In this document: piece after piece, positions 13,311 to 48,427 of the stretch
Numbering within the stretch: position 1 is the stretch's first letter
How the letters are laid out: each line of letters starts with the position of its first letter
The notes under the pieces: model-generated
Database searches by the model: none
The model's input: the letters and a program-made list of their open reading frames with translations, nothing else
Told to the model about the DNA's origin: nothing
IMG/VR virus record: IMGVR_UViG_3300012954_000010
Location: 34,498-98,497 of that record
Length of the DNA stretch: 64,000 nt
Reading direction: 5' to 3' (one strand)
Origin: a virus
Translations under genes and position numbers: made by a program

Positions 13311-13574
13311 TCACAACTCCCACATCATTTCATTCATTTCATCTGCATCAATCGCGGGGTCATTCCACTTAACGCCGTCACCTGTCTCACCCAACATGCG
13401 ACCGATCTGTCCATCCATCATGCAACGGACGAAGCAGTCCCATGGGGTCTCCAGTGTCTGGCGATAGGTCACACATGCCTTAGCGGTGTTGTAGAGAAAC
13501 TCATCGTTGCCGATCCAGAGGGAAGCGTTCCAAGTTTCGTAGTTTGCCCAACCGTTGTAGGTAGTGTCGCTCAT
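13311..13574 (-). CDS. Conserved phage protein with NYETWN motif
   Basis: 87 aa from the ATG preceded by AAAGGA. It contains NGWANYETWNASLWIGNDE, the hallmark of a small protein family common in phages and known to me only as a domain of unknown function. A longer in-frame GTG start (13631) would run through the promoter and is rejected. Its leader is nearly identical to those of the genes starting at 14905 and 20676, so the three are probably co-regulated. A terminator follows. Confidence 0.75.
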   Translation of the reverse strand: MSDTTYNGWANYETWNASLWIGNDEFLYNTAKACVTYRQTLETPWDCFVRCMMDGQIGRMLGETGDGVKWNDPAIDADEMNEMMWEL

Positions 13575-13596
13575 GATGTCCTTTGTTGTGTATGTA

Positions 13597-13833
13597 CTAA
13601 TTATAGGCGGGCATACAGGAAGTGCCACCACGCATGTGGCAGTTTACCCACTGTCCCAATGACCTGTCCCCTGCGATCATCAATGCTAAGATGTCACGCT
13701 TGCGAGTCTTGAAGGTGTACTCTGCCGAAGGGGTCTTAAACCAGCGCACTCTACAGGTGCCCGTGAAGGGGTTGACTCTCAGCGTCCACACGCTGCGGGA
13801 GATGCTGGGAGAGGTGCAGGAAATGTCAATCAT
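13597..13833 (-). CDS. KTSC-like small protein
   Basis: 78 aa. VWTLRVNPFTGTCRVRW, an aromatic strand, then DRSLGQWVN fit the pattern of KTSC domains (beta-strands ending in a S-x-G-x-aromatic-x-N helix). KTSC domains occur in phage and bacterial proteins and have been linked to RNA binding; no substrate can be read here. It starts within the previous gene (8-nt overlap ATGATTGA), and its stop codon falls directly after the TATAAT of the next promoter, so that promoter lies in the end of this gene. A second KTSC gene lies at 16724-16963. Confidence 0.55.
   Translation of the reverse strand: MIDISCTSPSISRSVWTLRVNPFTGTCRVRWFKTPSAEYTFKTRKRDILALMIAGDRSLGQWVNCHMRGGTSCMPAYN
13600..13628 (-). promoter_or_regulatory. 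Host-type promoter for the 13574 gene
   Basis: GTGGCA (weak -35), 17-nt spacer, TATAAT. The leader downstream, ending CATACACAACAAAGGACATC before ATG, is shared with two other genes. Confidence 0.6.
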
Positions 13834-13968: not shown

Positions 13969-14172
13969 TCAGTGGCGGTCGCTGATGTTCCAATATCCCC
14001 AGTTGTCATATCGGGGGGCGGGTTCCAGACCCTGACGCACACGCTCGCGGTATGCTGTCTCTGCTGCCATTTGCTTTCTGATGCTGTCCATCGCTGCTTG
14101 CATGATGGGTGAAGGGTTCTCATTGTGAAGGAAGAGACCGTCTTCTGATTTGATGAGTTTGGTTTTGTTCAT
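13969..14172 (-). CDS. Small hypothetical protein
   Basis: 67 aa, charged (MNKTKLIKSEDG...). The middle IMQAAMDSIRKQMAAETAYR is helical and the tail PRYDNWGYWN is aromatic. A TATAAT lies only 6 nt before the ATG, so a transcript from that box would be nearly leaderless. It heads a three-gene run (67, 44 and 78 aa) ending at the promoter near 13600. Function unknown. Confidence 0.6.
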   Translation of the reverse strand: MNKTKLIKSEDGLFLHNENPSPIMQAAMDSIRKQMAAETAYRERVRQGLEPAPRYDNWGYWNISDRH

Positions 14173-14178
14173 GTCTTT

Positions 14179-14198
14179 ATTATAGGGGGCGCTGCCCC
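14179..14198 (-). promoter_or_regulatory. Hairpin followed by -10 box before the 14172 gene
   Basis: GGGGC-AGC-GCCCC hairpin directly after the TAG of the upstream gene, then CTATAAT six bases before the next ATG. There is no convincing -35. It may be a processing or termination hairpin combined with a start signal. Confidence 0.4.
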
Positions 14199-14428
14199 TA
14201 ATTGGTGACAGGGTAGACCACTTCGTCAGGTGTCACACGAACCCACTTCATTGCTGCCTGTGTGCCTATCTTCCAGATCATGGCGTCTTCACCCAGTTCA
14301 GCGGCGAGACGGTAGGCGGCGTTCATGTTGGTGGCATACTCGCAACCGTGCCCGTCCAACTTTGCCCACGATGCAGGTTGCACAGCGAAGAGGCGCTGTC
14401 CCTCGGTTGGTCGTTTGATTTCGTTCAT
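14198..14428 (-). CDS. Small hypothetical protein next to HicA-like gene
   Basis: 76 aa (MNEIKRPTEGQRLF...), mixed alpha/beta with an Ala-rich helix (NAAYRLAAELGEDAMIWK). I recognise no family. Its ATG overlaps the TGA of the HicA-like gene, the position where an antitoxin would be expected. However, it lacks a clear HicB signature (no DxxG strand and no ribbon-helix-helix). The RNase-inhibiting role is therefore only a possibility. Confidence 0.6.
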   Translation of the reverse strand: MNEIKRPTEGQRLFAVQPASWAKLDGHGCEYATNMNAAYRLAAELGEDAMIWKIGTQAAMKWVRVTPDEVVYPVTN

Positions 14429-14598
14429 GCTGCTTTGTTTAATTGTTTTGCTATGTTGGACGCCACGAACGGGCGGGGTCGATATGGTATGGTTATTTGC
14501 TTACCCGAAGGGTGGCGAAAAACCATGTGCTTTGATCCGTTACGGTGCAGGACCCAGCCCCGCACCTTTGCAAGTTTGACCAATTGCTTTGGCGTCAT
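14425..14598 (-). CDS. HicA-like (YcfA family) small protein
   Basis: 57 aa: a short N-terminal helix (MTPKQLVKLAKVRGW), then VLHRNGSKHMVFRHPSGK, QITIPYRPRP and a C-terminal helix ending NIAKQLNKAA. This is the double-stranded RNA-binding-like fold order of HicA mRNA interferases: GS(K)H holding the catalytic His, a FRHP strand and the I-x-(I/V)-P strand. HicA toxins are usually paired with HicB; here only the 76-aa gene overlaps it. It starts one base after the stop of the 101-aa gene. It could act on host mRNA or be a domesticated RNA-binding protein. Confidence 0.65.
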   Translation of the reverse strand: MTPKQLVKLAKVRGWVLHRNGSKHMVFRHPSGKQITIPYRPRPFVASNIAKQLNKAA

Positions 14599-14930: not shown

Positions 14931-14985
14931 ATTATAGAGGATGGGGCAGACCTTGCTACCCCTACTGTGCCACTACCACAACTGG
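14931..14985 (-). promoter_or_regulatory. -10 box with upstream CCAGT-N6-AGTGGCACA element
   Basis: TATAAT at 14931-14936. The upstream element (plus strand TGTGCCACT accaca ACTGG, 14966-14985) ends 29 nt before it. A GGGG...CCCC hairpin lies between. It serves the 101-aa/HicA-like unit. Confidence 0.55.
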
Positions 14986-15131
14986 TCTTCAAACCGTTGA
15001 CGGGCGATCCATTCGCAGTGTTCAATGAGGGCGGCGTCTGTCATAGTGTCCGCTATGCCCGATTGCTTCATTGATGCCATTTCCTCGTCATAGAATTCTA
15101 ATAGCATGTCTTCATGATGGGGACTACTCAT
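14973..15131 (-). CDS. Small acidic hypothetical protein
   Basis: 52 aa from ATG at 15131 (MSSPHHEDMLLEFYDEE...). The start overlaps the stop of the 64-aa gene by 8 nt (ATGAGTAG), a spacing seen repeatedly in this block. It is mostly acidic helices. The stop codon lies inside the upstream promoter element of the next unit. Function unknown. Confidence 0.6.
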   Translation of the reverse strand: MSSPHHEDMLLEFYDEEMASMKQSGIADTMTDAALIEHCEWIARQRFEDQLW

Positions 15132-15318
15132 ATTCACCCCCGTGAAATGCTTCATGTGCATCTAGGACGAAATCAATAATTTCATCTGTAGCACTGCAAC
15201 TGAATCTATCACAGAACCAGTCGAGGGTCATTTCTGCTGACCACATTGTGTCTAGCATGAATGCTTGAAGTTCAAGCAGGTTGTCATCGTTGATGACTGC
15301 GTTGATGTTTTGTCTCAT
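15124..15318 (-). CDS. Small hypothetical protein
   Basis: 64 aa (MRQNINAVINDDNLLELQ...), acidic and helical with a Cys pair (FCDRFSC). The ATG lies 6 nt after a TATAAT, so translation may be leaderless. An in-frame TTG 18 nt upstream has no ribosome site. It is coupled to the 52-aa gene. No family recognised. Confidence 0.6.
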   Translation of the reverse strand: MRQNINAVINDDNLLELQAFMLDTMWSAEMTLDWFCDRFSCSATDEIIDFVLDAHEAFHGGEYE

Positions 15319-15324
15319 GTGCTT

Positions 15325-15379
15325 ATTATAGGGCAAGGGGTCAGCAGTTCAACCCAGGCTGTGCCACTACGGGAACTGG
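15325..15379 (-). promoter_or_regulatory. Promoter plus CCAGT-N6-AGTGGCACA element
   Basis: TTGAAC, 16-nt spacer, TATAAT (15325-15352). The upstream element (plus strand TGTGCCACT acggga ACTGG, 15360-15379) ends 29 nt before the -10, exactly as at 14931-14985. The element lies within the last codons of the 82-aa gene. Confidence 0.6.
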
Positions 15380-15589
15380 TCCGTATATGTGGTTCATTAG
15401 GTCCCGCACTCTCTCGCGGTCTATACTGTCACCGTCACCCCAGTCCCAGTGATCCATTGCATCATTACACCTGTCGAGGTACATTAACAATGCATAGGAA
15501 ATTTGTTCCTTAGTTCTGTTCTGTGCATACATGCCACCCTGACCATAATAAGAGTAGACATAGTTGATGAATTCGTTGAAGTCTTTCAT
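15341..15589 (-). CDS. Conserved cyanophage-type hypothetical protein
   Basis: 82 aa. FINYVYSYYGQGGMYA, then the pattern TKEQISYALLMYL and GDGDSIDRERVRDLM resemble an unnamed family I recall from cyanophages (opening helix, GGMYA turn, GDS(I/L)DRE-VRD motif). It is soluble and acidic, with a good ATG start 5 nt after the preceding stop. The last nine codons overlap the promoter element of the next gene. Function unknown. Confidence 0.7.
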   Translation of the reverse strand: MKDFNEFINYVYSYYGQGGMYAQNRTKEQISYALLMYLDRCNDAMDHWDWGDGDSIDRERVRDLMNHIYGPVPVVAQPGLNC

Positions 15590-15594
15590 GTTAA

Positions 15595-15777
15595 TTAAGC
15601 AAATAGTGGACGCATGTACTCTTTAAATTCCTCGCGCTTAGCATCAGCAAGGACCTTTAACTCTGTTTCAGAGAGATGCTTATATCTGAAATCTGCTTTC
15701 ATCTCATCATAACATGCCTGACTTATTCCTTTGTCAGTGATGTCATATTCATGAAGTTGAATGTGCTTAAAGAACAT
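15595..15777 (-). CDS. Small charged helical protein
   Basis: 60 aa (MFFKHIQLHEYDITDKG...), helical and charged at the C-terminus (ETELKVLADAKREEFKEYM). ATG start immediately after the T-run of a terminator-like hairpin, so expression may depend on read-through or on the -10-like box inside that hairpin. Function unknown. Confidence 0.55.
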   Translation of the reverse strand: MFFKHIQLHEYDITDKGISQACYDEMKADFRYKHLSETELKVLADAKREEFKEYMRPLFA

Positions 15778-15779
15778 AA

Positions 15780-15822
15780 TAAAAAAATCCTGTACATCTA
15801 TACAATAGACGATCAGGATTTA
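15780..15822 (-). terminator. Terminator or attenuator hairpin before the 60-aa gene
   Basis: AATCCTG ... CAGGATT stem enclosing a smaller TCTAT-TGT-ATAGA hairpin, then seven T on the minus strand. The T-run ends at the ATG of the following gene, which looks like an attenuation arrangement. Confidence 0.6.
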
Positions 15823-15836
15823 AATGCAACACATAG

Positions 15837-15856
15837 TGTGCCACTTTTAAGATTGG
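15837..15856 (-). promoter_or_regulatory. CCAAT-N6-AGTGGCACA element copy
   Basis: Plus strand TGTGCCACT tttaag ATTGG. A TATTGT lies 29 nt further along the minus strand (inside the hairpin), a weak -10 at the spacing seen in the other copies. Confidence 0.45.
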
Positions 15857-15957
15857 ACGGTGTAGTCAATTTCTACATTGCTTTGTGTGCTATCATCAAA
15901 AAAGAGTTCATTGTCATCCTGTAGAAGTGATTCAGCAATCATTTCTTCATTAGTCAT
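15847..15957 (-). CDS. Very short acidic protein with its own strong promoter
   Basis: 36 aa (MTNEEMIAESLLQDDNELF...), highly acidic, no cysteine. It has a clear ribosome site (GGGAG, 9 nt before ATG) and a consensus promoter at 15986-16015. Short acidic phage proteins driven by strong early promoters are often host-takeover factors, which is inference only. Its stop lies within the promoter element that follows. Confidence 0.65.
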   Translation of the reverse strand: MTNEEMIAESLLQDDNELFFDDSTQSNVEIDYTVQS

Positions 15958-15985
15958 AATACTCTCCCTAGAAAATACACTACTA

Positions 15986-16015
15986 ATTATAATGCTTAAG
16001 CACCTTTTTTGTCAA
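15986..16015 (-). promoter_or_regulatory. Consensus sigma70 promoter
   Basis: TTGACA, 18-nt spacer, TATAAT: both hexamers perfect. It drives the 36-aa acidic gene. The 16016-16095 stretch upstream holds no gene. Confidence 0.85.
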
Positions 16016-16095
16016 TATAAAAATAAACCACGGCAAAAGATGATCGTTCGTCGATGTCGGAACGTACTTCATTATTGTGGGGGTAAGGGTATATT

Positions 16096-16122
16096 AAAAA
16101 GGGGGAGCAACGCGGCTCCCCC
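16096..16122 (-). terminator. Strong rho-independent terminator
   Basis: Eight-base-pair GGGGGAGC/GCTCCCCC stem, six-base loop, then five T on the minus strand, directly after the 107-aa gene. Confidence 0.85.
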
Positions 16123-16132
16123 ATATATTATA

Positions 16133-16456
16133 TCATGCTGCTCTGAATTCGTAACCGTTGATGAACTGGTATTGCTTACCGCCATCCATCACATACCACA
16201 CAAAATCTTTCTGAAATACGCCATCAGTGAAAGCGTTACAGAATTGGTTGATGATTGCATTAAGTCTAGACTTAGTGGTGTTGGATTGCCATCCACCATC
16301 AAAGATCTTAACGAAGTCATCACCAAGGGTAGCGATGTGGTTGCCGTGCAAATGTACATAGGTCATGCCGTTGCAGTTGGTGACTTCTGTGTTACCAGAT
16401 CTCCAATCCTTGCAGTTGGCGATGGCGCTGTTCATTTGCTGTTCAATCTTACGCAT
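16133..16456 (-). CDS. Conserved phage protein (HGN...TTKSRLNA family)
   Basis: 107 aa from ATG at 16456. It contains VHLHGNHIATLGDD, DGGWQSNTTKSRLNAII and a closing FQKDFVWYVMDGGKQ strand pair, which I recall from a small widespread phage family of unknown function. A TTG-started longer frame is rejected because it runs through intergenic sequence. It is followed by a strong terminator, so it ends its transcript. Confidence 0.75.
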   Translation of the reverse strand: MRKIEQQMNSAIANCKDWRSGNTEVTNCNGMTYVHLHGNHIATLGDDFVKIFDGGWQSNTTKSRLNAIINQFCNAFTDGVFQKDFVWYVMDGGKQYQFINGYEFRAA

Positions 16457-16527
16457 GAGAGTCGGTGTTGTGTTGACTCTTTTAATATGACACAAAAAAT
16501 CGAGGTGTGCAACCACTAGTGGACAGT

Positions 16528-16686
16528 TCAATAACTGTCATAGTATTCATCGACCTCGCGTTTGAATTTGTTAACCTTCTTTTTGGATTGCCGCCGAATG
16601 TTTTTCACTTCATAACCGAAGTCTTCAAAATCATCCTGCAATTCTTTATACTTACTGGACTCGTACTTACCGTGTCTCTTACCCAT
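16528..16686 (-). CDS. Small basic protein
   Basis: 52 aa: MGKRHGKYESSKYKEL..., then RRQSKKKVNKFKREVDEYY. It is strongly basic in the middle with an acidic tail. Similar short proteins occur in other cyanomyoviruses as I recall; function unknown. A GACAGT/ACTGTC inverted repeat follows its stop. Confidence 0.65.
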   Translation of the reverse strand: MGKRHGKYESSKYKELQDDFEDFGYEVKNIRRQSKKKVNKFKREVDEYYDSY

Positions 16687-16723
16687 GGTCTAGTTTGTAT
16701 TACTCTACTGCCGAAAGTGATAA

Positions 16724-16963
16724 TTATTTAGTTTCAGTTAGATATCCATCTTTAATCTGGGCATGTAAGAATTTACCCATAGATCCATTGTCTCTGAACA
16801 ACACTTTCAGGATCTCTTCTTGTAGTTGTTCGACGAATAGTTCAGTATTTTTAGCAATAAATGAGTATTCTTTACTATTATTGCTATTATACACAATTTT
16901 GACAGTATTATCAACGATTTCAACTGATTTTACAGCTGAACTGTTGAATTTATCGTAAATCAT
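16724..16963 (-). CDS. KTSC-domain protein
   Basis: 79 aa with the full pattern: FNSSAVKSVEI strand, V-KIVYN strand, KEYSF strand, a helix (ELFVEQLQEEILKVL) and the closing NGSMGKFLHAQIKDG, equivalent to the S-x-G-x-F-x-x-x-I end of KTSC domains. Better preserved than the KTSC-like protein at 13597-13833. Likely a small RNA- or protein-binding accessory. Its leader is about 130 nt, T-rich and repetitive (TTTTTTGAGTTTTT twice around a CTTAAAA/TTTTAAG inverted repeat). Confidence 0.7.
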   Translation of the reverse strand: MIYDKFNSSAVKSVEIVDNTVKIVYNSNNSKEYSFIAKNTELFVEQLQEEILKVLFRDNGSMGKFLHAQIKDGYLTETK

Positions 16964-17100
16964 GACGCTTTTGTCTTAAATACGCAAGTGGTTAAATGTT
17001 AAAAAATGAAAAAACTCAAAAATCTTAAAATTTAACTTTTTAAGAATTCTGAAAAACTCAAAAAACGCAAAAAGTGAGATTTCTGTATTTCCATGAATTC

Positions 17101-17156
17101 ATTATAATGGCATTCTGAGGATTTTGGAGGTTTGGGTGTGCCACTTTGAGGACTGG
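17101..17156 (-). promoter_or_regulatory. -10 box with upstream element, KTSC gene
   Basis: TATAAT at 17101-17106 and the element (plus strand TGTGCCACT ttgagg ACTGG) at 17137-17156, 30 nt apart. In this copy the element extends to a hairpin TGTGCCA...TGGCACA. The whole 16964-17298 stretch has no gene; it holds the KTSC leader, this promoter, tandem repeats and an inverted repeat. Confidence 0.5.
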
Positions 17157-17196
17157 CACATTCTCGGTTGACTTTCGATAGGTCGCGTGCTAAGCC

Positions 17197-17240
17197 AGCA
17201 TCTCCAGAGTACCTTTACAGTATCTTCACAGTATCTACAC
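17197..17240 (-). repeat. Four contiguous 11-bp tandem repeats
   Basis: Minus strand units GTGTAGATACT, GTGAAGATACT, GTAAAGGTACT and CTGGAGATGCT follow each other with no gap. One unit per helical turn suggests an array of protein-binding sites, iteron-like. Confidence 0.7.
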
Positions 17241-17243
17241 AGC

Positions 17244-17296
17244 GTACATGGTATATTTTTTTATATATTTCTAATATATTTGGTATCACCATGTAC
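17244..17296. repeat. AT-rich inverted repeat
   Basis: GTACATGGT and ACCATGTAC (9 of 9 bases) flank 35 bp that is almost only A and T. It is adjacent to the 11-bp tandem repeats; together they could be an origin, operator or terminator-like element. Confidence 0.65.
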
Positions 17297-17298
17297 AA

Positions 17299-17532
17299 TC
17301 ACTTAAATCCCTTACTATCACTGGCGCGGACAGGAGGCAAATCATTAACAATTACATGTGACAGGTGCTTAGTCTTTGACCAACCGAACCAGTATGATCT
17401 CATCTGTTCATAGTCATCAAATGTAAGTGTTTTTTTGTTCTTAAACACTACTGTGTAAGTGTGTCTATCATACAATCCATCACTTGTTTGAGTGTAGTAT
17501 TGTGGATCAGAGGGTTGGATCAATTGTGTCAT
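17299..17532 (-). CDS. Small hypothetical protein
   Basis: 77 aa, beta-rich (HTYTVVFKNKKTLTFDDYE...). The DDYEQMRSYWFGWS stretch is aromatic. No family recognised. It overlaps the end of the preceding gene by 26 nt, last in a four-gene overlapping chain from 18037. Confidence 0.65.
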   Translation of the reverse strand: MTQLIQPSDPQYYTQTSDGLYDRHTYTVVFKNKKTLTFDDYEQMRSYWFGWSKTKHLSHVIVNDLPPVRASDSKGFK

Positions 17533-17746
17533 CGTATTTGGATGCTCGTTTACCTTTGTATACTAGATCATCATAGTCACGAGGGAAACAACAAACTAGT
17601 ATGTGATCTTTCTTATGTTGTGATAGACCATCGAGTCTAGGTTTAGTTCCTATCTCTATTGTGACATACTCATCACATGAGAAATAGACCCATCCTTCTA
17701 ACTCTTTCCATACAACATAGTCATTTACTTGCGGTTTGTATGTCAT
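17507..17746 (-). CDS. Small conserved-looking hypothetical protein
   Basis: 79 aa from ATG at 17746, which overlaps the TGA of the membrane-protein gene before it. An ATG 18 nt earlier is less likely because of that coupling. The sequence VNDYVVWKELEGWVYF then EYVTIEIG and HKKDHILVCC suggests a small beta-barrel (SH3-like) fold. I recall similar cyanophage proteins without a function. Confidence 0.65.
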   Translation of the reverse strand: MTYKPQVNDYVVWKELEGWVYFSCDEYVTIEIGTKPRLDGLSQHKKDHILVCCFPRDYDDLVYKGKRASKYDDTIDPTL

Positions 17747-17889
17747 GGGTGTAATGACTTCCATACTGCTTCAATGTGCATGTTACCTTTAATGTATCCA
17801 CTTACTATGATAGTAATAGTGAATAAGAATACTGCTACTAGTGATAGTACGAGTGGTACTGTTGGGTTAGCATTAGTATTGTTCGCCAT
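17743..17889 (-). CDS. Small membrane protein, single helix
   Basis: 48 aa with one clear membrane segment (VPLVLSLVAVFLFTITIIV, residues about 11-30) and a short C-terminal tail. The start lies inside the end of the previous small membrane protein (17-nt overlap). Such paired short membrane proteins resemble holin/antiholin or superinfection-exclusion peptides, but nothing proves it. Confidence 0.65.
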   Translation of the reverse strand: MANNTNANPTVPLVLSLVAVFLFTITIIVSGYIKGNMHIEAVWKSLHP

Positions 17890-18037
17890 CTTTTGCTTTA
17901 GCGGCGCTGTGTACTGTTTCGACTACTGTGTATATCATTTCAGTAGTGGGCGACATGTTGGTGGTCACAATGATCAGACCAGCAACAGCGATGATGGCAG
18001 ATGTCCACCAATAGTGCTTTGTGATCAGGGTCGTCAT
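17873..18037 (-). CDS. Small membrane protein, single helix
   Basis: 54 aa from ATG at 18037. Membrane segment WWTSAIIAVAGLIIVTT (about residues 10-27) then a polar tail. First gene after its own promoter, leader about 15 nt without a strong ribosome site. Partner of the overlapping 48-aa membrane protein; role unknown. Confidence 0.65.
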   Translation of the reverse strand: MTTLITKHYWWTSAIIAVAGLIIVTTNMSPTTEMIYTVVETVHSAAKAKDGEQY

Positions 18038-18058
18038 GATGTAGTGTCGTATAGGTAT

Positions 18059-18088
18059 ATTATACCATAGATGGGTCAACTGTGTCGA
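18059..18088 (-). promoter_or_regulatory. Sigma70-type promoter
   Basis: TCGACA, 18-nt spacer, TATAAT. It overlaps the last codons of the preceding gene and drives the membrane-protein unit. Confidence 0.7.
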
Positions 18089-18270
18089 ACATATCGTTGA
18101 ATCCTGACTCCACCAGTCAGTGGGTCAGTCAATGGTACACTGGTGTGACACATCAATTTGTAGTCTCGTGGTTTAAGGTTGGATCGTTCGATCTGGTCAA
18201 CAGCATGGTCAAAACACATGAACCATGATAGATTGAATTTGTCTGTTCGTGGTTCGAGACGCCATGGCAT
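18076..18270 (-). CDS. Hypothetical protein, start uncertain
   Basis: 64 aa from ATG at 18270 (MPWRLEPRTDKFNLSW...). The same frame stays open back to 18543, over the whole AbrB-like gene, where it would encode a Ser/Thr/Lys-rich segment. GVKHTRCKDTDLFPVRS, just before the ATG and past the AbrB stop, looks protein-like, so the real product may begin earlier, by an unusual start or by joining the AbrB frame through a +1 shift. No family recognised. Confidence 0.5.
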   Translation of the reverse strand: MPWRLEPRTDKFNLSWFMCFDHAVDQIERSNLKPRDYKLMCHTSVPLTDPLTGGVRIQRYVRHS

Positions 18271-18334
18271 ACTCCTCACTGGAAATAGATCTGTGTCTTT
18301 GCATCGAGTATGCTTAACACCACGATCTTTTGTT

Positions 18335-18559
18335 TTAGAACCACTTACCTTTCGTTTTGAGGAAGTCTTTTGTTGTGTGGCGAGTGATTTCAGGTTCTTG
18401 TCCAGACTTTGTTGTGTCTTGGATGATGATACTGTCGCCTTCGACTTTCCACTCGACTTCTGTACCCGCTTGCCACTGGAGTTCTTGGAGGATGTAGTGC
18501 GGGATCGTGATGTAGAGGTCTTTCGTGTCGTCATACTGTTCAATCTTGAATGTATCCAT
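18335..18559 (-). CDS. AbrB/MazE-like DNA-binding or antitoxin-type protein
   Basis: 74 aa. DLYITIPHYILQELQW, then AGTEVEWKVEGDSIII, is the swapped-hairpin pattern of AbrB/MazE/SpoVT domains (I-T-I-P, a short helix, a G-x-x-V-x-W strand). Such dimers bind DNA, often as antitoxin or transition-state regulators, and small single-domain versions are common in cyanophages. No toxin gene is adjacent; the HicA-like gene is 4 kb away. Start overlaps the peptidase gene by 20 nt. Confidence 0.7.
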   Translation of the reverse strand: MDTFKIEQYDDTKDLYITIPHYILQELQWQAGTEVEWKVEGDSIIIQDTTKSGQEPEITRHTTKDFLKTKGKWF

Positions 18560-19226
18560 TCTCAGTTAACCATTTGCGAGTGAGTGGTGTCGGTTCATAT
18601 TCTGTCCACATGGACCCACGAGCACATGCCTGGAGTGCTTTCATAGTCATGTCCTCTGTACGACCTGCCCATTGTGCTTCCGCTTCCCATGGTACAGCAG
18701 ATGCGGGATAGGTGCGCTCTGCCATGACACGCCAGATCATAGGGACATCTTCCTCTGGTTTGATAATAGCAATTAAACTATTATCAATGGTGCCTGCCAT
18801 ACAGTCCTGAGCAGCGTGCCATCCTTCATGTCGCATCAATTGCATCAATACATGTGGTTCATTCATGTATCTCTTATTGAGATATACATTGTTACTCACA
18901 GTATGATACACACCACGATGCATGATGGGAAAGTATCGTGAGTCAGCAAGATATACTTTGATGCCAATCTGATTCATTGTCATCAACATATTGTTGAACT
19001 CATTGGCATGACGAGTGAATCGTTCTGGGTTATCATACTGTGAACTAATGTCCAACAGTGAGAACACTTCATCTACATCCTTCTTGCATTCTCGTACAAG
19101 CATACAACCCATTGAGTCCATGCTATTGTATCCTTGGGTGATTTTATCCTCACCTGCATTGACACTGGTAGTACCTAGTAGTAGTGCTGCTGCGATTGTG
19201 TTAAACAGTCTGATCCGATGTGCCAT
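18540..19226 (-). CDS. Exported HExxH zinc metallopeptidase-like protein
   Basis: 228 aa. Residues 1-24 form a signal peptide (basic start, IAAALLLGTTSVNA, then cleavage). LMRHEGWHAAQDC contains HEGWH (residues 133-137), the zinc-binding HExxH of gluzincin/metzincin-like peptidases; E181 or E183 in VPWEAEAQW could be the third ligand. Cysteines at 41, 47, 142 and further on could form disulfides, fitting a periplasmic location. Substrate unknown; cell-envelope or surface-layer proteins are plausible for a phage. I recall related proteins in other cyanophages. Confidence 0.7.
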   Translation of the reverse strand: MAHRIRLFNTIAAALLLGTTSVNAGEDKITQGYNSMDSMGCMLVRECKKDVDEVFSLLDISSQYDNPERFTRHANEFNNMLMTMNQIGIKVYLADSRYFPIMHRGVYHTVSNNVYLNKRYMNEPHVLMQLMRHEGWHAAQDCMAGTIDNSLIAIIKPEEDVPMIWRVMAERTYPASAVPWEAEAQWAGRTEDMTMKALQACARGSMWTEYEPTPLTRKWLTENGYIQD

Positions 19227-19368
19227 AGTGATAAGTATAATTCAAGAATGCATTGATGTTTGGTTTAACTCCGAGTGACAAGCAGCACTCATACCATGAG
19301 TCAAAGTCCGTCTGGAGTGTCTTGCTCAGAGCAATTTGGACATAGTTTTTTGATGGTGTTGATGTCAT
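19201..19368 (-). CDS. Possible small protein, overlapping frame
   Basis: 55 aa from ATG at 19368. The second half (DFDSWYECCLSLGVKPN then a tyrosine-rich tail) occupies the otherwise empty gap between the CPNC protein and the peptidase. It overlaps the former by 68 nt and the latter by 26 nt. The heavy overlap makes the start doubtful. Confidence 0.4.
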   Translation of the reverse strand: MTSTPSKNYVQIALSKTLQTDFDSWYECCLSLGVKPNINAFLNYTYHYGTSDQTV

Positions 19369-19468
19369 GTAGGATTTTCTCTGCGAGTGCTTTGTCACCA
19401 TCGGCATACGCTTTCATGTAATTAAGTACAAGAGAGCGTAGTTGCTCCTTAAGTTGTGAGTTCGTCAT
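19301..19468 (-). CDS. Small helical protein with CPNC knuckle
   Basis: 55 aa (MTNSQLKEQLRSLVLNYMK...), helical, ending KKLCPNCSEQDTPDGL. One CxxC pair could bind metal in a dimer. ATG start overlaps the 74-aa gene by 20 nt; good phage-like codons. A longer overlapping frame in the same DNA (19201-19368) competes only for its last third. Confidence 0.6.
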   Translation of the reverse strand: MTNSQLKEQLRSLVLNYMKAYADGDKALAEKILHDINTIKKLCPNCSEQDTPDGL

Positions 19469-19673
19469 ACAGTGCTACGAGTTCGTCACTATTGTAAAAG
19501 TGAGTTTGCTCGTTTATATAGTTGTTGGGGTCCAACCACTCAAACCACTCATCAGCAAAACAAATAGCATCATCAGTGCGATTGTCAGCGATCAGTTCAC
19601 GAAACCGTTCTACTACCCACTCACAGATAGCATCACGGTTCTCAGAGATTTGCAGAGCGAATTCGTTGTTCAT
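19449..19673 (-). CDS. Small acidic hypothetical protein
   Basis: 74 aa, acidic and tryptophan-rich (ENRDAICEWVVERFREL, then FADEWFEWLDPNN). Helical; no cysteine cluster or membrane segment. Start overlaps the preceding gene by 4 nt (ATGA). No family recognised. Confidence 0.65.
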   Translation of the reverse strand: MNNEFALQISENRDAICEWVVERFRELIADNRTDDAICFADEWFEWLDPNNYINEQTHFYNSDELVALYDELTT

Positions 19674-19963
19674 TGCTTGTTAAGAGTGAGTTGGTTGTTC
19701 AGGTGGTCGTAGGAGACAAACTCTGTCCCTCGGGGCAGAGACTCAATGATAGCACGAGTGAACTCAAGAGTAAAGCGTGACTGGTATTTCCAGAACAAAC
19801 GATACAATTTGTTATGTGGTTCAACAATGGTGTCCACTCGCACAGTATACTCACCACGAGTGTATCGTGCTGGGAATGGCATCAGCAGTTCTTTGACATG
19901 ACTGACAACAACAGGAGAGCAGCGTTGCTGCTTGTTGACTTGATTACCTAAACGCAAACTCAT
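19670..19963 (-). CDS. Hypothetical protein
   Basis: 97 aa, basic (pI probably above 9), with beta-strand-like YTRGEYTVRVDTIVEP and LFWKYQSRFTLEFTRA, then EFVSYDHLNNQLTL. It overlaps both neighbours by 4 nt (ATGA), showing coupled translation. No known motif. Confidence 0.65.
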   Translation of the reverse strand: MSLRLGNQVNKQQRCSPVVVSHVKELLMPFPARYTRGEYTVRVDTIVEPHNKLYRLFWKYQSRFTLEFTRAIIESLPRGTEFVSYDHLNNQLTLNKQ

Positions 19964-20202
19964 TTTACAAATACCTCTTTGTTGAATTCTTTAGTAAGAT
20001 CTACTGTCTGTTTGAGTAGATTGCAGATATGAATCACATAGTCTGCTTCATTGTCATCCATGCCACGCTCAAAGTCGAAGTCATAGGATGCGTCCCAATC
20101 GGGTGTGCCATCCATCTTAACAGGTGCTCCGTACATATATCCATCTTCTTCCATCGCATATGCGTTGCCGTCAGCAACAATGTAGAAATCTGGGGCGTTC
20201 AT
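19960..20202 (-). CDS. Small acidic hypothetical protein
   Basis: 80 aa, very acidic in the middle (DGTPDWDASYDFDFERG) with a helical C-terminus. First gene after the promoter at 20232-20260, leading a coupled chain (80, 97, 74, 55 aa, then the peptidase and the AbrB-like regulator). I recall similar unnamed proteins in cyanophages. Confidence 0.65.
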   Translation of the reverse strand: MNAPDFYIVADGNAYAMEEDGYMYGAPVKMDGTPDWDASYDFDFERGMDDNEADYVIHICNLLKQTVDLTKEFNKEVFVK

Positions 20203-20231
20203 GGTTGGTAAGTGTGAGTTGGTATGATAGT

Positions 20232-20260
20232 ATTTTATAAAAGAAATGAGCGTTTGTCAA
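20232..20260 (-). promoter_or_regulatory. Sigma70-type promoter
   Basis: TTGACA, 17-nt spacer, TAAAAT. It overlaps the end of the 139-aa gene and drives the chain starting at 20202. Confidence 0.7.
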
Positions 20261-20676
20261 CTCATGTAGAGATAACCTCCCGCCCAATCAGCAACTTCAA
20301 GACAACGCTCGCGGGATTCTTCATTCAAAAGATTGTAGCGAACATATTTGGCAGGTCCTTTCCAACCTGCTGGTTTGTAGACATCACCAGTGTTACGATC
20401 GATGAATGCATGTACAGACTGAGAACCACTAGAGTCCTTCATGATAAGTTTGTAATACTTACGACCTTTGTCAAGGTAGAAGTCATAATCAGCATTGCCT
20501 GCCTGGAGAGAATCGATCTGAGACTGGTGATAGTCAATGCTATGCTGTTGAGTAGCATTAGCAAGAGAACGCTTCTGACTACGGATGCTATACTCAATGA
20601 AGTCGGTAAGCAATGCCATGCACAGTTCGTGACTGTGTTGGGTAACTTGTGATTGTTGAGCAGTTGCGGTGGTCAT
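20257..20676 (-). CDS. Conserved cyanophage protein (HAFID..GDVYKPAGWK family)
   Basis: 139 aa from ATG at 20676. The C-terminal half KYYKLIMKD, SVHAFIDRNTGDVYKPAGWK, and RERCLEVADWAGGYLY is a block I recall as widely conserved in T4-like cyanophages, without a known function. The N-terminal half is helical and Gln-rich. It has its own promoter and the shared leader TATACACAACACAGAACG. Confidence 0.75.
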   Translation of the reverse strand: MTTATAQQSQVTQHSHELCMALLTDFIEYSIRSQKRSLANATQQHSIDYHQSQIDSLQAGNADYDFYLDKGRKYYKLIMKDSSGSQSVHAFIDRNTGDVYKPAGWKGPAKYVRYNLLNEESRERCLEVADWAGGYLYMS

Positions 20677-20703
20677 GATGCGTTCTGTGTTGTGTATACA
20701 GTT

Positions 20704-20731
20704 ATTATAACGGTCAGTTGAGCAGTGCCAA
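20704..20731 (-). promoter_or_regulatory. Sigma70-type promoter
   Basis: TTGGCA, 16-nt spacer, TATAAT. The -35 lies in the last codons of the 49-aa gene. Leader resembles those at 13574 and 14905. Confidence 0.65.
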
Positions 20732-20863
20732 CACCTCAGGTGACAGTTCCTCAACTGTCCACTGGTCGCTCAGGTCAGGGATGTCATCATCCCAATCTAC
20801 CTCAGCAGAATCAATCAGGTCAAGCAGTTTACGATCGAGCAGAACTTCAGCAACGGTAGTCAT
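20714..20863 (-). CDS. Short acidic protein
   Basis: 49 aa, strongly acidic (AEVDWDDDIPDLSDQW, then VEELSPEVLALLN). ATG overlaps the stop of the membrane protein upstream (ATGA). Two leucine-rich amphipathic helices flank an Asp cluster. No family recognised. Confidence 0.6.
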   Translation of the reverse strand: MTTVAEVLLDRKLLDLIDSAEVDWDDDIPDLSDQWTVEELSPEVLALLN

Positions 20864-21069
20864 AGTAATTTGGAGAGACTAATGAACAGTAGAAAAGTGA
20901 GCATGATTACCACATCATACGATTTAGTGCGTATGAAATATGGCAGGGAGACTAGATCTCCTATAAAGTGGAGTGCGACTCCACCAATTACGCTAACATG
21001 TAACACAACAAAGTATGCTACAACTACACACGCACTGCCTGCAATGCGTAGATTGACATCATAAGTCAT
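20860..21069 (-). CDS. Small integral membrane protein
   Basis: 69 aa with two probable membrane helices: IAGSACVVVAYFVVLHVSV (about 8-26) and, after VSLPYFIRTKSYD, VVIMLTFLLFISLS (about 53-66). The PYFIRTKSYDVVIML core is one I recall from several cyanophage small membrane proteins. Function unknown; inner membrane by analogy. Coupled with both neighbours by ATGA overlaps. Confidence 0.7.
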   Translation of the reverse strand: MTYDVNLRIAGSACVVVAYFVVLHVSVIGGVALHFIGDLVSLPYFIRTKSYDVVIMLTFLLFISLSKLL

Positions 21070-21287
21070 GGGCGAACAACCACATCAGCAGGGACACGAG
21101 AGACTGTGTAACGACGGATCTGACTGCCATACTCACGCCATGCCTCTACAGTCTCGTTCACGATGCGATTGTGTTGACGATCCATACCCTTAGCAGTCTT
21201 ACACTTACGCTCCTTACGGAAATAGATGATGGGATGCTGGGGTGACTCGAAAGTGTCGATCTCGATCTTGTAGTGGGAGTAGGTCAT
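21066..21287 (-). CDS. Small basic hypothetical protein
   Basis: 73 aa from ATG at 21287 (MTYSHYKIEIDTFES...). Basic, with a beta start and helix IVNETVEAWREYG. A longer in-frame start at 21353 would overlap the preceding gene more and is less likely. No family recognised. Confidence 0.6.
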   Translation of the reverse strand: MTYSHYKIEIDTFESPQHPIIYFRKERKCKTAKGMDRQHNRIVNETVEAWREYGSQIRRYTVSRVPADVVVRP

Positions 21288-21319
21288 GACCTGTGTTTCG
21301 CTGACTCCGTTAGTATAGG

Positions 21320-21577
21320 TCAGGTGGCGTCGTTGAGGGCATTGGATAGACACTCCTGTAAGTGTCCCTCAAGTGCAACATCATTCACATTGTGACGAAT
21401 TGCAAACGATTGACTGTCATGTCGGTTCATAGACCACATACTATCAATCAGGAACCTAATCTGATCTGTATTCAGTTCAATCTGTAATGTGATAGGTTTG
21501 GGTCTTACAGGAAGTTCAACACCGAAGGTGTGAGCGGACGCAAGATCTGCATCGCTGTATAAGGGGTCGTTTGACAT
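21320..21577 (-). CDS. Small hypothetical protein
   Basis: 85 aa. The pattern ITLQIELNTDQIRFLIDSMW then a helical C-terminus (HLQECLSNALND) suggests a strand followed by helices. The first 24 codons are shared with the end of the 94-aa gene in another frame (73-nt overlap), long even for this block. Function unknown. Confidence 0.6.
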   Translation of the reverse strand: MSNDPLYSDADLASAHTFGVELPVRPKPITLQIELNTDQIRFLIDSMWSMNRHDSQSFAIRHNVNDVALEGHLQECLSNALNDAT

Positions 21578-21789
21578 AGTTCTACTGGGTCGTTACCCAT
21601 GCGCTTTGCATTAATGGGTGGATAGAATTGTTTGCTTTTTTTGTGGTAGAATCCCCAAATTGTAGAAACAGATGCACTGTTAAAAATGTATTCACGATGA
21701 TGGCGCAACCATATAGCAATAACACCGCGTTTGTGTTCCTTAAATTCATAAGAGTATCCATCTGGTGGTTTATGAGTGAATTCTATCAT
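21505..21789 (-). CDS. Conserved cyanophage protein (STIWGFY..TPYTAM family)
   Basis: 94 aa from ATG at 21789. GYSYEFKEHKRGVIAIWL, VSTIWGFYHKK and TTPYTAMQ are blocks I recall from an unnamed cyanophage family. Basic, beta-rich N-terminus. It overlaps the preceding gene by 4 nt and the next by 73 nt. Function unknown. Confidence 0.65.
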   Translation of the reverse strand: MIEFTHKPPDGYSYEFKEHKRGVIAIWLRHHREYIFNSASVSTIWGFYHKKSKQFYPPINAKRMGNDPVELCQTTPYTAMQILRPLTPSVLNFL

Positions 21790-22037
21790 GTGACACAAGC
21801 AAATGGGGATCCGTGTACAGGTTGTGTGTGGAAATCAGTGACACTGTATCCATAACCATGAATACGAGAGTTTGCTTCCTCACGCAATGCCTTACGAGTG
21901 ATTATAGACCGAGAGATGGTCTCGATGCCATAATATTTGACATGCTTAACAATAAAGTTAGGAGACACATGTCCGTCTGCCGTCATGCATGGATAGAAAT
22001 CCACTACCATGTGACCTTCAGGTGACTTGAGTTGCAT
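21786..22037 (-). CDS. Small hypothetical protein
   Basis: 83 aa, basic, with VVDFYPCMTADGHVSPN and a C-terminal beta part (HGYGYSVTDFHTQ). First gene after the terminator/promoter element at 22061-22114. No family recognised. Confidence 0.6.
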   Translation of the reverse strand: MQLKSPEGHMVVDFYPCMTADGHVSPNFIVKHVKYYGIETISRSIITRKALREEANSRIHGYGYSVTDFHTQPVHGSPFACVT

Positions 22038-22060
22038 GGGGTTGTTCGCTTGACTCTTCT

Positions 22061-22066
22061 AATATA
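22061..22066 (-). promoter_or_regulatory. -10-like TATATT at set distance from upstream element
   Basis: TATATT lies 28 nt from the upstream element at 22095-22114 and 24 nt before the ATG of the 83-aa gene. A terminator sits between element and box. Confidence 0.4.
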
Positions 22067-22070
22067 CATG

Positions 22071-22093
22071 AAAAAGGGGCGGTTGCCCACCCC
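22071..22093 (-). terminator. Rho-independent terminator with GNRA-type loop
   Basis: GGGGTGG-GCAA-CCGCCCC stem-loop then five T on the minus strand, ending the unit of the 59-, 111- and 57-aa genes. Confidence 0.85.
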
Positions 22094-22094
22094 T

Positions 22095-22114
22095 TGTGCC
22101 ACTAAATCAACTGT
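22095..22114 (-). promoter_or_regulatory. ACAGT-N6-AGTGGCACA element copy
   Basis: Plus strand TGTGCCACT aaatca ACTGT. It directly follows the stop of the 57-aa gene and precedes the terminator. Confidence 0.5.
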
Positions 22115-22280
22115 CACTCATACAAGGGATGACATCGATAGGACCTGTTACCTTTGGATCGTTCTCTAGATGTTTAATGAAATTACAAATGTCATCTAGA
22201 TCATACATTACAACACGCTGTTGTGCTGAGTAACCTTTCTTCTTTAGTTTTTTCCAAGTAATAGCGTACTTCTCAATCAA
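22107..22280 (-). CDS. Small basic protein with TTG start
   Basis: 57 aa (MIEKYAITWKKLKKKG...). No ATG is available; the TTG overlaps the TGA of the 111-aa gene (TTGA). The lysine-rich helix and MYDLDDICNFIKHLEN suggest a small folded helical protein. The terminator and regulatory element follow. Function unknown. Confidence 0.55.
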   Translation of the reverse strand: MIEKYAITWKKLKKKGYSAQQRVVMYDLDDICNFIKHLENDPKVTGPIDVIPCMSDS

Positions 22281-26147: not shown

Positions 26148-27057
26148 CGTTCTCAGTATCCAGTTCTTCTTCTACCTTAGTAATTAACATTTCCAACCAT
26201 TGCTTTCTGTCAGCAAGTTGACTTTCGGTTAGATCTGTTTCACCAACACCAACATCCTCAACAGCATTTGCATTCTTAAGTTTTTCATACTCAAGTAATA
26301 ATGTAGCGAAGTAGTTGTTCTCTGTTAGAGACTTCAGAACTAGGAAGTTTGCAATCTTTTCTCTGAATAGTTTGAGATAGTGTTTTGAGATAGGCAACCA
26401 CTGATCATCAGTTGCAAGATACTCTCTATCAGGATAGTCTTCAGAATATATTTTCTTGAAAAAGTCAGGAGAAATTGGAAACTTAACTCCTTCTGGGTTG
26501 GTAGAGAACTCACTTGCAGTAGTTAGATCTCTAAGTTTAGATCTATACAATGTATACTGTGCTTTAGCATCAGCATCAAGTGGAGAATCTACTGCCAACG
26601 CCCAGTCAGTTTCTGATAGTAAGAAGTTTCTTGCCAATCTAACAGTGAAAGGAGATACTTTTCTCTGCTTACCATACATACGAGACAGTTCCGTTTGGAA
26701 CTCTTCATTCTCGATAGAGTCAATTAGATAGAATGTTTCTACTAACTTATCTCTTACTTGCTTTGCCTGCTCAACATCAACCTGCTCCATTTCATAGTCA
26801 ATCCACTCATACTCACCAGTTTTGAAGTTCTTGATGAATCTTCTGCGCTTAGCATAGTATGTGTTATTGGTGAACCAACTAAACATGATTAATTTATCCT
26901 TATCACTATCCCACAAAGGATAGAGAAAAGGCACCAGTTCATCCTGCCAATAGTTGTCGGGGATGACCTTGATGGTTCCATTGTAACTGATTTCTTGCTG
27001 TACAGTATCCAACTGTACTTGCAATACAGGAATATCAGCGGAGTTGAAGGTTGACAT
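26140..27057 (-). CDS. Tail fibre assembly chaperone-like protein
   Basis: 305 aa. The middle part RLARNFLLSETDWALAVDSP followed by a spacer and YRSKLRDLTT matches the pattern of phage tail assembly chaperones (R..L...DW...D.pl....YR..LRdi, as in Phage_tail_APC proteins). It is acidic at the C-terminus with no membrane segment. It lies directly after three fibre genes, the usual position of fibre chaperones such as Tfa or gp38, so it probably assists folding or trimerisation of those adhesins and is absent from, or minor in, the virion. Confidence 0.6.
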   Translation of the reverse strand: MSTFNSADIPVLQVQLDTVQQEISYNGTIKVIPDNYWQDELVPFLYPLWDSDKDKLIMFSWFTNNTYYAKRRRFIKNFKTGEYEWIDYEMEQVDVEQAKQVRDKLVETFYLIDSIENEEFQTELSRMYGKQRKVSPFTVRLARNFLLSETDWALAVDSPLDADAKAQYTLYRSKLRDLTTASEFSTNPEGVKFPISPDFFKKIYSEDYPDREYLATDDQWLPISKHYLKLFREKIANFLVLKSLTENNYFATLLLEYEKLKNANAVEDVGVGETDLTESQLADRKQWLEMLITKVEEELDTENDE

Positions 27058-33983: not shown

Positions 33984-36900
33984 TTAGAGTTCCATCAACC
34001 ACCAACCGCGTAGTGCAGGTGGAATAGTTCTAGCATTTGCAGATCCTTCGATGTCAACAGTACCAGCATATACAAGTCCGAAGGATGCATTTCTGGTTTG
34101 AACAACTAGTTCACCAGAATCCCAGGTAGTTGTCAGAGTTTGACCAGCACCAGCGCCAATCTTAGATCCAGTGCTGTCACCTTGGATAGGTGTAGCAATG
34201 TTATTGATCTTCTTCGCTCTGAGGATCAGACTCGTGTTATATGTCAGGTTACCACTGAGTTCAATGAATCTAATCATGTCACCAGTCTGTGCATTGTCTG
34301 GTAGATATAGAACCATGTTGCTTCCAGAAGAAGCATTAACCATATAGTTATTATTTACCTCAAGTGGGTTGTCTTGCTGCTGACCAATGCCAGTTGATGC
34401 ATCAAATGCAACATATGTGTGTCTTCTACCACCATTACCTGTCCAGTATTTCTCAATACCGAACGAATCGATAGCATTGTTCTGATAAATTCTGAAGTCT
34501 TTAGCACCTTCAGTTCCACCAACACCAGCAGATCCTAGGTTATCAATATGGAAGATGGATTGTGTTGCATCTTCATCTACCTTAAGTTGACCCTTCTGAT
34601 AGAATGTCTCACCCATCAAGACATTACCTTCTCTGTTAGTAACACGGAAGGATGTCTCAGTAGAGCAGATGCCATTCATCTGACAATCATCATAGAAGAT
34701 CTTGAGGTCACCATAGAATGTAGCAGCACCCTTGAGTGTCATGCCATTCGTGTTAGTTAATGGATCTTCAATCGATCCATCACCAGAGTGACCATCGTCA
34801 TTAGAGATAGACAGAACCAGAGTCTTACCATCAGAACCAAACATTCTGAGGACACCACTGTTGATAGTGAGGTCATCTTGAATTGTTACCTTACCACCAT
34901 TGTATAGTTCAACAATAGGAGTGGTGACAACATTAGGAACTCTGACACTCTTAGGTAGTTTGATAGCATAGAATACATCAAGAGAACCATCAACACTATC
35001 AGCGACAAAGAATTCTGTGCCGATTCTCATCATGGTGAAGTAATCTAGTTTTGGTGAAATTAGATCACCATCACGCAGAGTTAATTCTAGTCTTAGGTCA
35101 CTAGTGTTAGGTGTGCGTGCCTTGAGAGCAGTTGCACGATCTCCTTGAGTTGCAGGAACATCATGTAAGAGTGTTGTTGTTCTCTCATACTTCTCAAGTT
35201 TAACAACTTGAACACCAGCAGCGAAATTTTGTGCAGTTGTTCCTTCTACACCTCTACCACCATTTGGATATGCAGCATTGCTAGAAGTTGGTAGGAAGAA
35301 TAGACCACCAGCCTCATATGGATCATCAGTAACTTGAATAATTTCAATTTGAGATCCAGTGACATACATGGCAACTAAATCACCCTTCATGAAGGCATCT
35401 AGATTAGATGCAATCTGAATATTAGTTGTAGCAGCAACAATACTTGCTGGTAGAGTAGTAATAGGACCTGTTGTTAGTTCCGATTGAGGATCGAATCTGT
35501 AAACAGTACAAACATCAACATCAGCAGTGTATGCAGCAGGTGATGTGCCGAACGCTTCAGCGTTGAAGAATACAGTGGCGTGGGTGTTGCCAATCTTGGT
35601 ATCACCTGTGCATGTATCAACTTCAAATGTAGTGATAGGATTAGTAGCACCATTAGTAATGGTGAGTTTCTTATTTGTAGGAGAATTTGTGAATGGTGTG
35701 GTGCAGCTACCTTTGATTGTTAGAGAACCAGTTAGTTCCTGATCACCCTTAGATTTAACAGCACCTGTGGTAGAATCTACCTCATATACAGTCTCCTCAT
35801 TGTTGCTATCACAACCATTCTTGATCCTGAACTTCTTAGCTACCTGAGATAAGAGAGTCTTGACCTTGAATACTTCACCAATATCAAATACAGAGTTGTT
35901 TGCACTAGATTCTCTACCGATGATTACATAGTCACCGATAGCAATAGTGCCACCAAACTGTGCAAGATATACATTCTCATCATTACCCTGATCATCGATT
36001 GGTTGCTCAGTCCATGTAGCGTCAAACTGTACGATACACTTATAGATCGCAGTCCTATCTGGATGTGCGTTGCTGACAGCAGTGAAAGTACCAAATGGTT
36101 CTCTCTCAACAACGAGATAGTATGGAGCGGTGCTGATTCTAGGTAGAGAAACAACTCTCACAAATTCAACATTACTACCAACAGAAGTGGTAGTGTATCT
36201 CATATTAGTGATACCATAATGATCTACAGAATCACCACTAATCGCTTCCTGATAGAGTTGGAACACAACTCCACCAGTTTGAGCATTGACAGGCATGTCA
36301 AGACTCAATCTTGCATAGTTCTTGCTTTGATCAATCCACTGAACAAATGTTGGCCAGGTTGATGGATCAAAATCATCTAGATCTGTTGGACAGATAAATC
36401 CAGCAGAGGTGAATGATGCACCATCATCAGTGGAGTAACGAATCTGTAGACCTTCTTCTTGTCCAGCACCAGATCTATCTGGTACTTCACCACCATTGTT
36501 GTTATTACCAACATAAACATCAATTTCAATTCTGATGACAGGACCATTGTTGTTAATGAATGACGCATCAAGTGATTGGAAGTTAACAGATCTTGGACCA
36601 GTAGTTGTCTCCTGACTGTTTGTGAAGAACGCAAGATACTTCTGACCAGTGTTAAATCCACCACCGTTACCAGTTCCAGGTCCACTAAATGCAATTTCAA
36701 CACCACCCTCATATCCAGTGATGATGCCCTGTGGAGCATTACCATCAGTATAAGAACCGAATTCGGTTGTTACAGTAGCTGTATTTGCGGAGTCAGGAGA
36801 ATCTAGTAGTAGGATATCATTCTCTTGGAAGTATGGATTACCATTTGCATCCAGAGACTCTCTAAGAAGTGGTAGATAGTATTGGTTACCAGTTAGTGTT

Positions 36901-47750: not shown

Positions 47751-47791
47751 ATTTTTCCTAACCTGCTGAGGTATAAGATCCGATCTTCGAT

Positions 47792-47799
47792 TATTTATA
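47792..47799 (-). promoter_or_regulatory. Late promoter of the adhesion operon
   Basis: Perfect TATAAATA, 12 nt after the tRNA-Ala 3' end and 41 nt before the giant gene's ATG. Confidence 0.8.
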
Positions 47800-47810
47800 C
47801 CACTATTAAA

Positions 47811-48398: not shown

Positions 48399-48400
48399 GA

Positions 48401-48422
48401 TAAGAGGGGGCATTCCACCCCC
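48401..48422 (-). terminator. Terminator-like hairpin after the tmRNA
   Basis: GGGGG-TGGAATG-CCCCC then TCTTAT on the minus strand. The T-run is poor. It probably marks the end of the tmRNA precursor. Confidence 0.45.
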
Positions 48423-48427
48423 AGTGA

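Follow-up and report, generated by a model that had tools for sequence, protein, structure and literature searches.

A palindromic element at a fixed distance from early promoters of T4-like cyanophages and its probable reading by a host regulator

How T4-like cyanophages switch on their first genes is a question raised by a 64,000-nucleotide (nt) stretch of viral DNA (positions 34,498 to 98,497 of IMG/VR record IMGVR_UViG_3300012954_000010, the whole of this stretch being referred to as the window), in which a short palindrome, termed here the E element, recurs upstream of the -10 boxes of small early genes. Cyanomyoviruses are without motA and asiA, and in 2010 the control of their early and middle genes was reviewed as unclear (PMC2984593). 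An earlier note on the window, made from its letters, had listed five copies of the element as a gapped motif and proposed either an activator site or an element acting in RNA. Comparison with other phages and with host genomes argues with fair assurance that the element is the operator of an activator at sigma-70 early promoters, and that this activator is most likely the host GntR-family regulator PMM1637; cyanophages would then probably rely on a borrowed host regulator of transcription to turn on their earliest genes.

Layout and distribution of the element

The full E element reads TGTGCCAGTT-N4-AAGTGGCACA, an imperfect palindrome of 24 bp with A in place of C5 in ~15% of sites; downstream of it, at 28-31 nt (mode 29), follows a sigma-70 -10 box. 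With the -10 box at about -12 to -7, the element spans about -65 to -42 and its dyad centre falls at ~ -53.5. All five copies listed in the earlier note are exact matches to its pattern and lie on one strand, that of the genes, and their distances to the -10 boxes are those it had given (Table 1). In the full 98.5-kb record, the same pattern with at most one mismatch is matched six times in forward and 0 times in reverse orientation, and the reversed control gives 0 matches. Related contigs were used to derive a position weight matrix of the element; combined with a -10 box at 28-31 nt, this matrix has 12 strand-specific matches in the window vs 1 in five Markov shuffles. Nine element promoters lie before early genes at 13.6-22.1 kb, four of them additional to those noted earlier; two further matrix matches (37473 and 43755) sit within a large reading frame of the late region and are probably due to chance. 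Significance is reached by the profile joined to a -10 box but not by the loose pattern alone, which at up to three mismatches gives 49 matches vs 36.8 expected.

The six-nucleotide gap of the motif as first described is strongly favoured in IMG/VR, where TGTGCCACT-Nx-ACTGG is matched 101 times at gap 6 and 1-14 times at other gaps. The exact form TGTGCCAGT-N6-AGTGGCACA is present in at least 120 stretches of the viral collection, vs ~1 expected by chance (an estimate that assumes ~60 billion bases), some of the IMG/VR sites coming from related phages and hence not being independent. Among the matches listed, only 15 of ~400 exact-form sites have no -10-like hexamer on either side at 28-31 nt, and a random four-position window holds such a hexamer in 7% of cases. 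The -10 boxes are found on one or both sides of the palindrome, and the element can take either orientation.

In whole phage genomes, -10 boxes matching at least five of six positions stand at 28, 29 and 30 nt from 8, 38 and 13 of the 81 sites outside the Microcystis siphophage Mic1, with ~1-3 at any other offset, and the corresponding histogram for half-sites peaks at 54 for 29 nt vs 0-7 at offsets away from 28-32. Five copies in Mic1 are set 39 nt away, about a helical turn beyond the usual distance, and it is these that have a TTGACA box. The -10 boxes of element promoters are strong, while a -35 box of at least four of six positions is present in 30% of 119 such promoters vs 24% in the background, and TTG at the proper spacer position in ~20% of the 119. 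A promoter accompanies 82 of 748 sites in which only the promoter-proximal half is perfect and 41 of 746 in which only the distal half is, twice as often with the proximal half; these figures come from a separate search for either half and so avoid the bias of the first IMG/VR search, which favoured a perfect proximal half. Together, strong -10 boxes, near-background -35 boxes and a conserved proximal half form the signature of an activator site just upstream of -35; this anatomy would suit an activator touching RNA polymerase from there, activation itself being unproven by anatomy. The earlier proposal of an activator site near -50 to -65 is supported by these features, by the constancy of the spacing across phages and by the same geometry at a host small RNA (sRNA) promoter (see below). 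Activator dyads well upstream of phage promoters with a poor -35 are familiar from the sites of P2 Ogr / P4 Delta and phi29 p4, the P2-type centre lying at ~ -55; these sites belong to late promoters, are served by phage-encoded activators and have other sequences, and the element is thus analogous to them but not a member of their class. It also differs from the T4 middle promoter, in which a MotA box centred near -30 replaces the -35.

The element is found in all cyanomyoviruses tested and in Mic1. Profile matches scoring at least 12 number 48 in Mic1, 20 in S-CRM01, 16 each in S-SSM7 and phage G003, 15 in phage G001, 13 in P-SSM2, 12 in S-PM2 and 5 in the record containing the window, vs 0-1 in shuffled genomes. 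Syn9 (copies at about 48558, 51002, 52996, 127492 and 148742), P-SSM4, Syn1 and Sf-CH1b have fewer full palindromes, but keep the promoter-proximal half at the right distance. A pattern search revealed no element clusters in T4, RB49, KVP40 or the Kyanoviridae phage HTVC008M, which infects SAR11. The sites are concentrated among small genes of unknown function, for example at 39-52 kb in S-SSM7 and 44-68 kb in P-SSM2, and the 733 distinct proteins encoded downstream fall into 322 clusters, mostly of unrelated small proteins, so that the element does not belong to any one gene family and the downstream gene is ruled out as the conserved unit. Some conserved genes also stand behind it (named from protein starts), namely a predicted peptidase and a CobS-like ATPase in P-SSM2 and S-SSM7, UvsW-like helicases in S-PM2 and G003, an RNase H-like gene in S-CRM01 and psbA in Syn1.

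All Mic1 copies lie at 57-72 kb. The transcripts of gp69-gp73 peak at 0.5 h, and gp52, gp59 and gp63 are among the genes of the second early cluster (PMC11237433); these genes are located in the element-rich region, and their timing fits a host activator present before infection, and fits a newly made phage activator less well. At the sensitivity used, PhoH is the only protein broadly common to Mic1 and the cyanomyoviruses.

Two observations on repeats stand apart from this. At 66.0-72.1 kb of Mic1 (locus L288), elements occur in tandem pairs 56-58 bp apart, with many repeats between genes and a clear -10 box at the usual distance in some only. S-CBWM1 (MG450654) carries a different but similar palindrome, TGTGAAAGATTCGAAACTGTCCCA, in ~11 copies genome-wide (e.g., 26546-26569, 84560-84760 and 96364-96476), often paired ~89 bp apart; it may be an operator or repeat of another class.

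Copies at host small RNA genes and ribosomal RNA operons

The link to the host emerged only from a search of 340 cyanobacterial genomes for both arms with a -10 box at 28-30 nt, followed by RNA annotation. Of the 7 matches, five are directly followed, 40-41 nt from the element, by Cyano-1 RNA (RF01701, Rfam), which we take to be the Yfr2 sRNA family, and 6 of the 7 have A-G before the near arm, which the search pattern did not require. A further copy (L292), found by the palindrome alone, is a perfect phage-type element with a score of 35.6, 39 nt upstream of Cyano-1. Six genomes thus have the element 39-41 nt before the 5' end of Cyano-1, in a geometry identical to that of the phage promoters. 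Two more copies, in Cyanobiaceae genomes G104 and G021 (L299 1501-1524 and L303 1501-1524), precede 16S ribosomal RNA (rRNA) by 397 and 410 nt, and their common downstream sequence, ..GGGTGCTACCTTTTCTTGGTGCTCA.., suggests the same regulator at an rRNA operon promoter.

Elsewhere in hosts the element is nearly absent. At up to one mismatch it occurs at 14 places in 201 Cyanobiaceae genomes, where ~5 are expected by estimate, and the flanking genes follow no theme; the half-site with its -10 box (TGGCACA-N28-30-TATAAT) was met once in 101 host genomes. An attempt to define a host regulon from the DNA pattern alone was abandoned, the strict pattern giving 31 scattered matches in 84,980 genomes, near chance.

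Promoters of yfr2 with the motif CGRE1 are bound by PMM1637, a regulator of the GntR family that is shared by all cyanobacteria and mediates the induction of Yfr2; in the genome of Prochlorococcus MED4 the motif is found at no other place (Lambrecht et al., 2019; PMC6778093). Like CGRE1 (Lambrecht 2018, cited in PMC6778093), the phage element is found in yfr2 (Cyano-1) promoters, and the confinement of CGRE1 in MED4 fits the rarity of the element in hosts; the phages differ in carrying many copies before protein genes. Since the same site stands at the same distance at phage early genes and at a host sRNA gene, the host regulator is probably borrowed. On this evidence the phage element would be CGRE1, bound by the GntR protein, with binding activating transcription: PMM1637 or its counterpart would occupy -42 to -65 of the early promoters, and through the many phage copies host RNA polymerase together with the host GntR protein could read early genes at once, without Alt, ModA and MotA, the proteins used by T4. 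That the regulator is universal in cyanobacteria would explain how unrelated cyanophages with hardly any gene in common come to have one site, and that it is cyanobacterial would explain the absence of the element from the SAR11-infecting relative HTVC008M.

Several points weigh against a borrowed host activator. The phage sites are known from sequence, and CGRE1 was likened to them by promoter location and rarity, not by motif sequence. The spacing at host Cyano-1 genes was partly selected, as the search pattern included the -10 spacing (L292 being exempt), and the strict pattern was matched in only 7 of the 340 cyanobacterial genomes. The pattern search revealed no element clusters in several cyanophages of other lineages, namely P-SSP7, Syn5, PSS2, S-CBS4, S-TIM5, Nostoc A-1, A-4L and MaMV-DC. 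Lastly, the regulator could repress instead of activate.

Parts of this picture have precedents, and the statement of the earlier note that no such element is known for cyanophages is probably wrong. Doron 2016 reportedly describes a novel element that governs early genes and is both abundant and conserved among T4-like cyanophages, Syn9 included; probably it is this very one. A Mic1 repeat beginning 'GTGCCAGTTYATAAAGTGTCACAATTAGAYTTGACA...' and containing a predicted promoter (Yang et al., 2020; PMC7156551) comprises one element copy and the promoter that goes with it, and is given there as a repeat of one phage and not as an element common to other phages or the host; host CGRE1 was likewise on record (PMC6778093). 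Both the element and its link to the host may in large part already be contained in Doron 2016 and Lambrecht 2018, and the claim to novelty is modest: as far as could be checked, the additions are the Mic1 case, the near-background -35, the proximal half-site rule, the contrast with HTVC008M and the rRNA-operon copies.

Other readings of the element

The most serious rival, though an unlikely one, keeps the activator site and supposes that the activator is phage-encoded or carried in the virion, the likeness to host Yfr2 promoters reflecting an old capture. The lack of a good -35, a mark of activator dependence, would suit it, and cyanophage DNA-binding proteins are encoded near element promoters, such as the MazE/AbrB-fold protein of the window (Table 1), whose relatives in P-SSM2, S-PM2, Syn9, P-SSM4, Syn1, Sf-CH1b, S-SKS1 and G003 lie within or near the element cluster. 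As a universal binder this protein was rejected, being not found in the four element-rich phages S-CRM01, S-SSM7, G001 and Mic1. Mic1 gp73, described in the literature as helix-turn-helix-like, was rejected as well, having no homologue in any other phage record, and a search for proteins common to Mic1 and the cyanomyoviruses gave only PhoH as broadly shared. No T7-like RNA polymerase was detected in element-bearing contigs, by a search that also detected nothing in control genomes. Moreover, genes of the element-rich part of Mic1 are already on at 0.5 h (PMC11237433).

Slightly less probable still is an operator for repression or shut-off, at which a regulator bound upstream would lower the early genes after their burst. 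GntR-family proteins are often repressors, which counts in its favour. So does the course of the Mic1 E1 transcripts, which peak at 0.5 h and then drop quickly (PMC11237433). Yet the distance of the site is constant and places it upstream of -35, clear of both the -10 box and the start; the -35 boxes are poor, and the GntR factor acts in the induction of Yfr2 (PMC6778093).

That the copies are recombination cassettes, repeated short homologies by which early genes are shuffled, is very improbable. The model is the PeSL cassette of T4-like phages, in which an early promoter and a terminator hairpin are reportedly repeated among variable genes (attributed to Arbiol 2010 and Comeau 2014). Copies ahead of 322 protein clusters, longer common sequence among some S-SSM7 copies and a terminator of the preceding gene that often overlaps the promoter all resemble such cassettes, and the hairpins or terminators that the earlier note had placed between element and -10 box are indeed real at some sites (e.g., 22067-22094, probably the terminator of the preceding gene). 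The conserved part of the element, in contrast, is a protein-type palindrome and not a stem-loop. The sequence between element and -10 box is overall not conserved, so the spacing is no mere by-product of copying; host Cyano-1 genes have the same element in front of them; and in S-PM2, PeSLs were judged too sparse to serve as a mechanism in a paper on deletions (PMC4503421). Finally, the second option of the earlier note, by which the element would act at the RNA level, in antitermination or processing of the preceding transcript, can practically be set aside: the element can be folded on paper into a hairpin and has terminators nearby, but it stands upstream of the promoter in either orientation, keeps a fixed distance to -10 boxes on its far side, which occur at one end of the palindrome or at both, has no U-run of its own downstream, and places G opposite G in 129 of 168 near-perfect copies where a stem needs a pair.

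The window and early transcription in cyanophages

The element promoters of the window and associated features are collected in Table 1. At the degraded copy that the earlier note had placed at about 52003, a half-site is present, and the spacing found is 30 nt to TAAATT and not, as had been given, 29 nt to ATAAAT.

Table 1. Element promoters and associated features in the window (positions counted from its first letter)
Feature	Position	Strand	Remarks
E element TGGGACAGTGGGTAAACTGCCACA	13635-13658	-	Profile score 15.4; not in the earlier note
-10 TATAAT, 29 nt from element	13600-13605	-	Before gene 13311-13580 (DUF7249)
E element TGTGACACCTGACGAAGTGGTCTA, distal half perfect	14214-14237	-	Profile score 12.1; not in the earlier note
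-10 TATAAT, 29 nt from element	14179-14184	-	Before small gene 13969-14172
E element AAGACCAGTTGTGGTAGTGGCACA, proximal half perfect	14966-14989	-	Pattern and profile
-10 TATAAT, 29 nt from element	14931-14936	-	Gene start 14905
E element CGGACCAGTTCCCGTAGTGGCACA	15360-15383	-	Pattern and profile
-10 TATAAT, 29 nt from element	15325-15330	-	Gene 15124-15318
E element CCGTCCAATCTTAAAAGTGGCACA, distal half degenerate	15837-15860	-	Pattern and profile
-10-like TATTGT, 29 nt from element	15802-15807	-	Gene 15595-15777
E element TATGACAGTTATTGAACTGTCCAC, degenerate	16519-16542	-	Profile score 6.6; not in the earlier note
-10 CATATT, 29 nt from element	16484-16489	-	Before Kyano_Gp96 gene 16133-16456
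E element TGTGCCAGTCCTCAAAGTGGCACA, full palindrome	17137-17160	-	Profile score 33.3
-10 TATAAT, 30 nt from element	17101-17106	-	Downstream gene 16724-16963
MazE/AbrB-fold (PF04014) small protein	18335-18559	-	Early region; possible phage antitoxin or regulator
E element GTGGACAGTTGAGGAACTGTCACC	20739-20762	-	Profile; not in the earlier note
-10 TATAAT, 29 nt from element	20704-20709	-	Before DUF7717 gene 20257-20679
E element AGTGACAGTTGATTTAGTGGCACA	22095-22118	-	Profile score 25.6
-10 TATATT, 28 nt from element	22061-22066	-	Gene 21786-22037
Terminator-like hairpin GGGGTGGGCAACCGCCCCTTTTT between element and -10	22067-22094	-	Sequence
Isolated half-site CTGGCACA / ACTGGCACA	52001-52009	-	-10-like TAAATT 51965-51970, 30 nt; weak candidate

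Three other features were recorded, all on the minus strand. A small early gene at 14425-14598 encodes a HicA-like toxin domain (PF07927), with no obvious HicB adjacent. A single reading frame of 4618 codons occupies 33984-47840 in the structural region, and a transfer-messenger RNA (tmRNA) gene (48382-48709; cyano_tmRNA, tag ANTSDVAANNIVAFSRQAAPVAA), over which the permuted-tmRNA model also scores (Rfam), lies beside tRNA-Thr, tRNA-Ala and tRNA-Leu.

T4-like cyanophages are without the proteins by which T4 redirects host RNA polymerase, and with a named host factor and a named DNA site the question of how their early genes are controlled becomes directly testable. There is about an even chance that two unrelated lineages, the T4-like cyanomyoviruses and Mic1, use one host-derived operator as a general early-promoter element, by which a regulator with hardly any target besides yfr2 (and, in some strains, the rRNA operon) would become a master activator of phage early transcription. 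The element can serve to mark early promoters in viral metagenomes and, if PMM1637 and its relatives do read it, phage take-over would be linked to a regulator that serves the light and nitrogen stress responses of the host.

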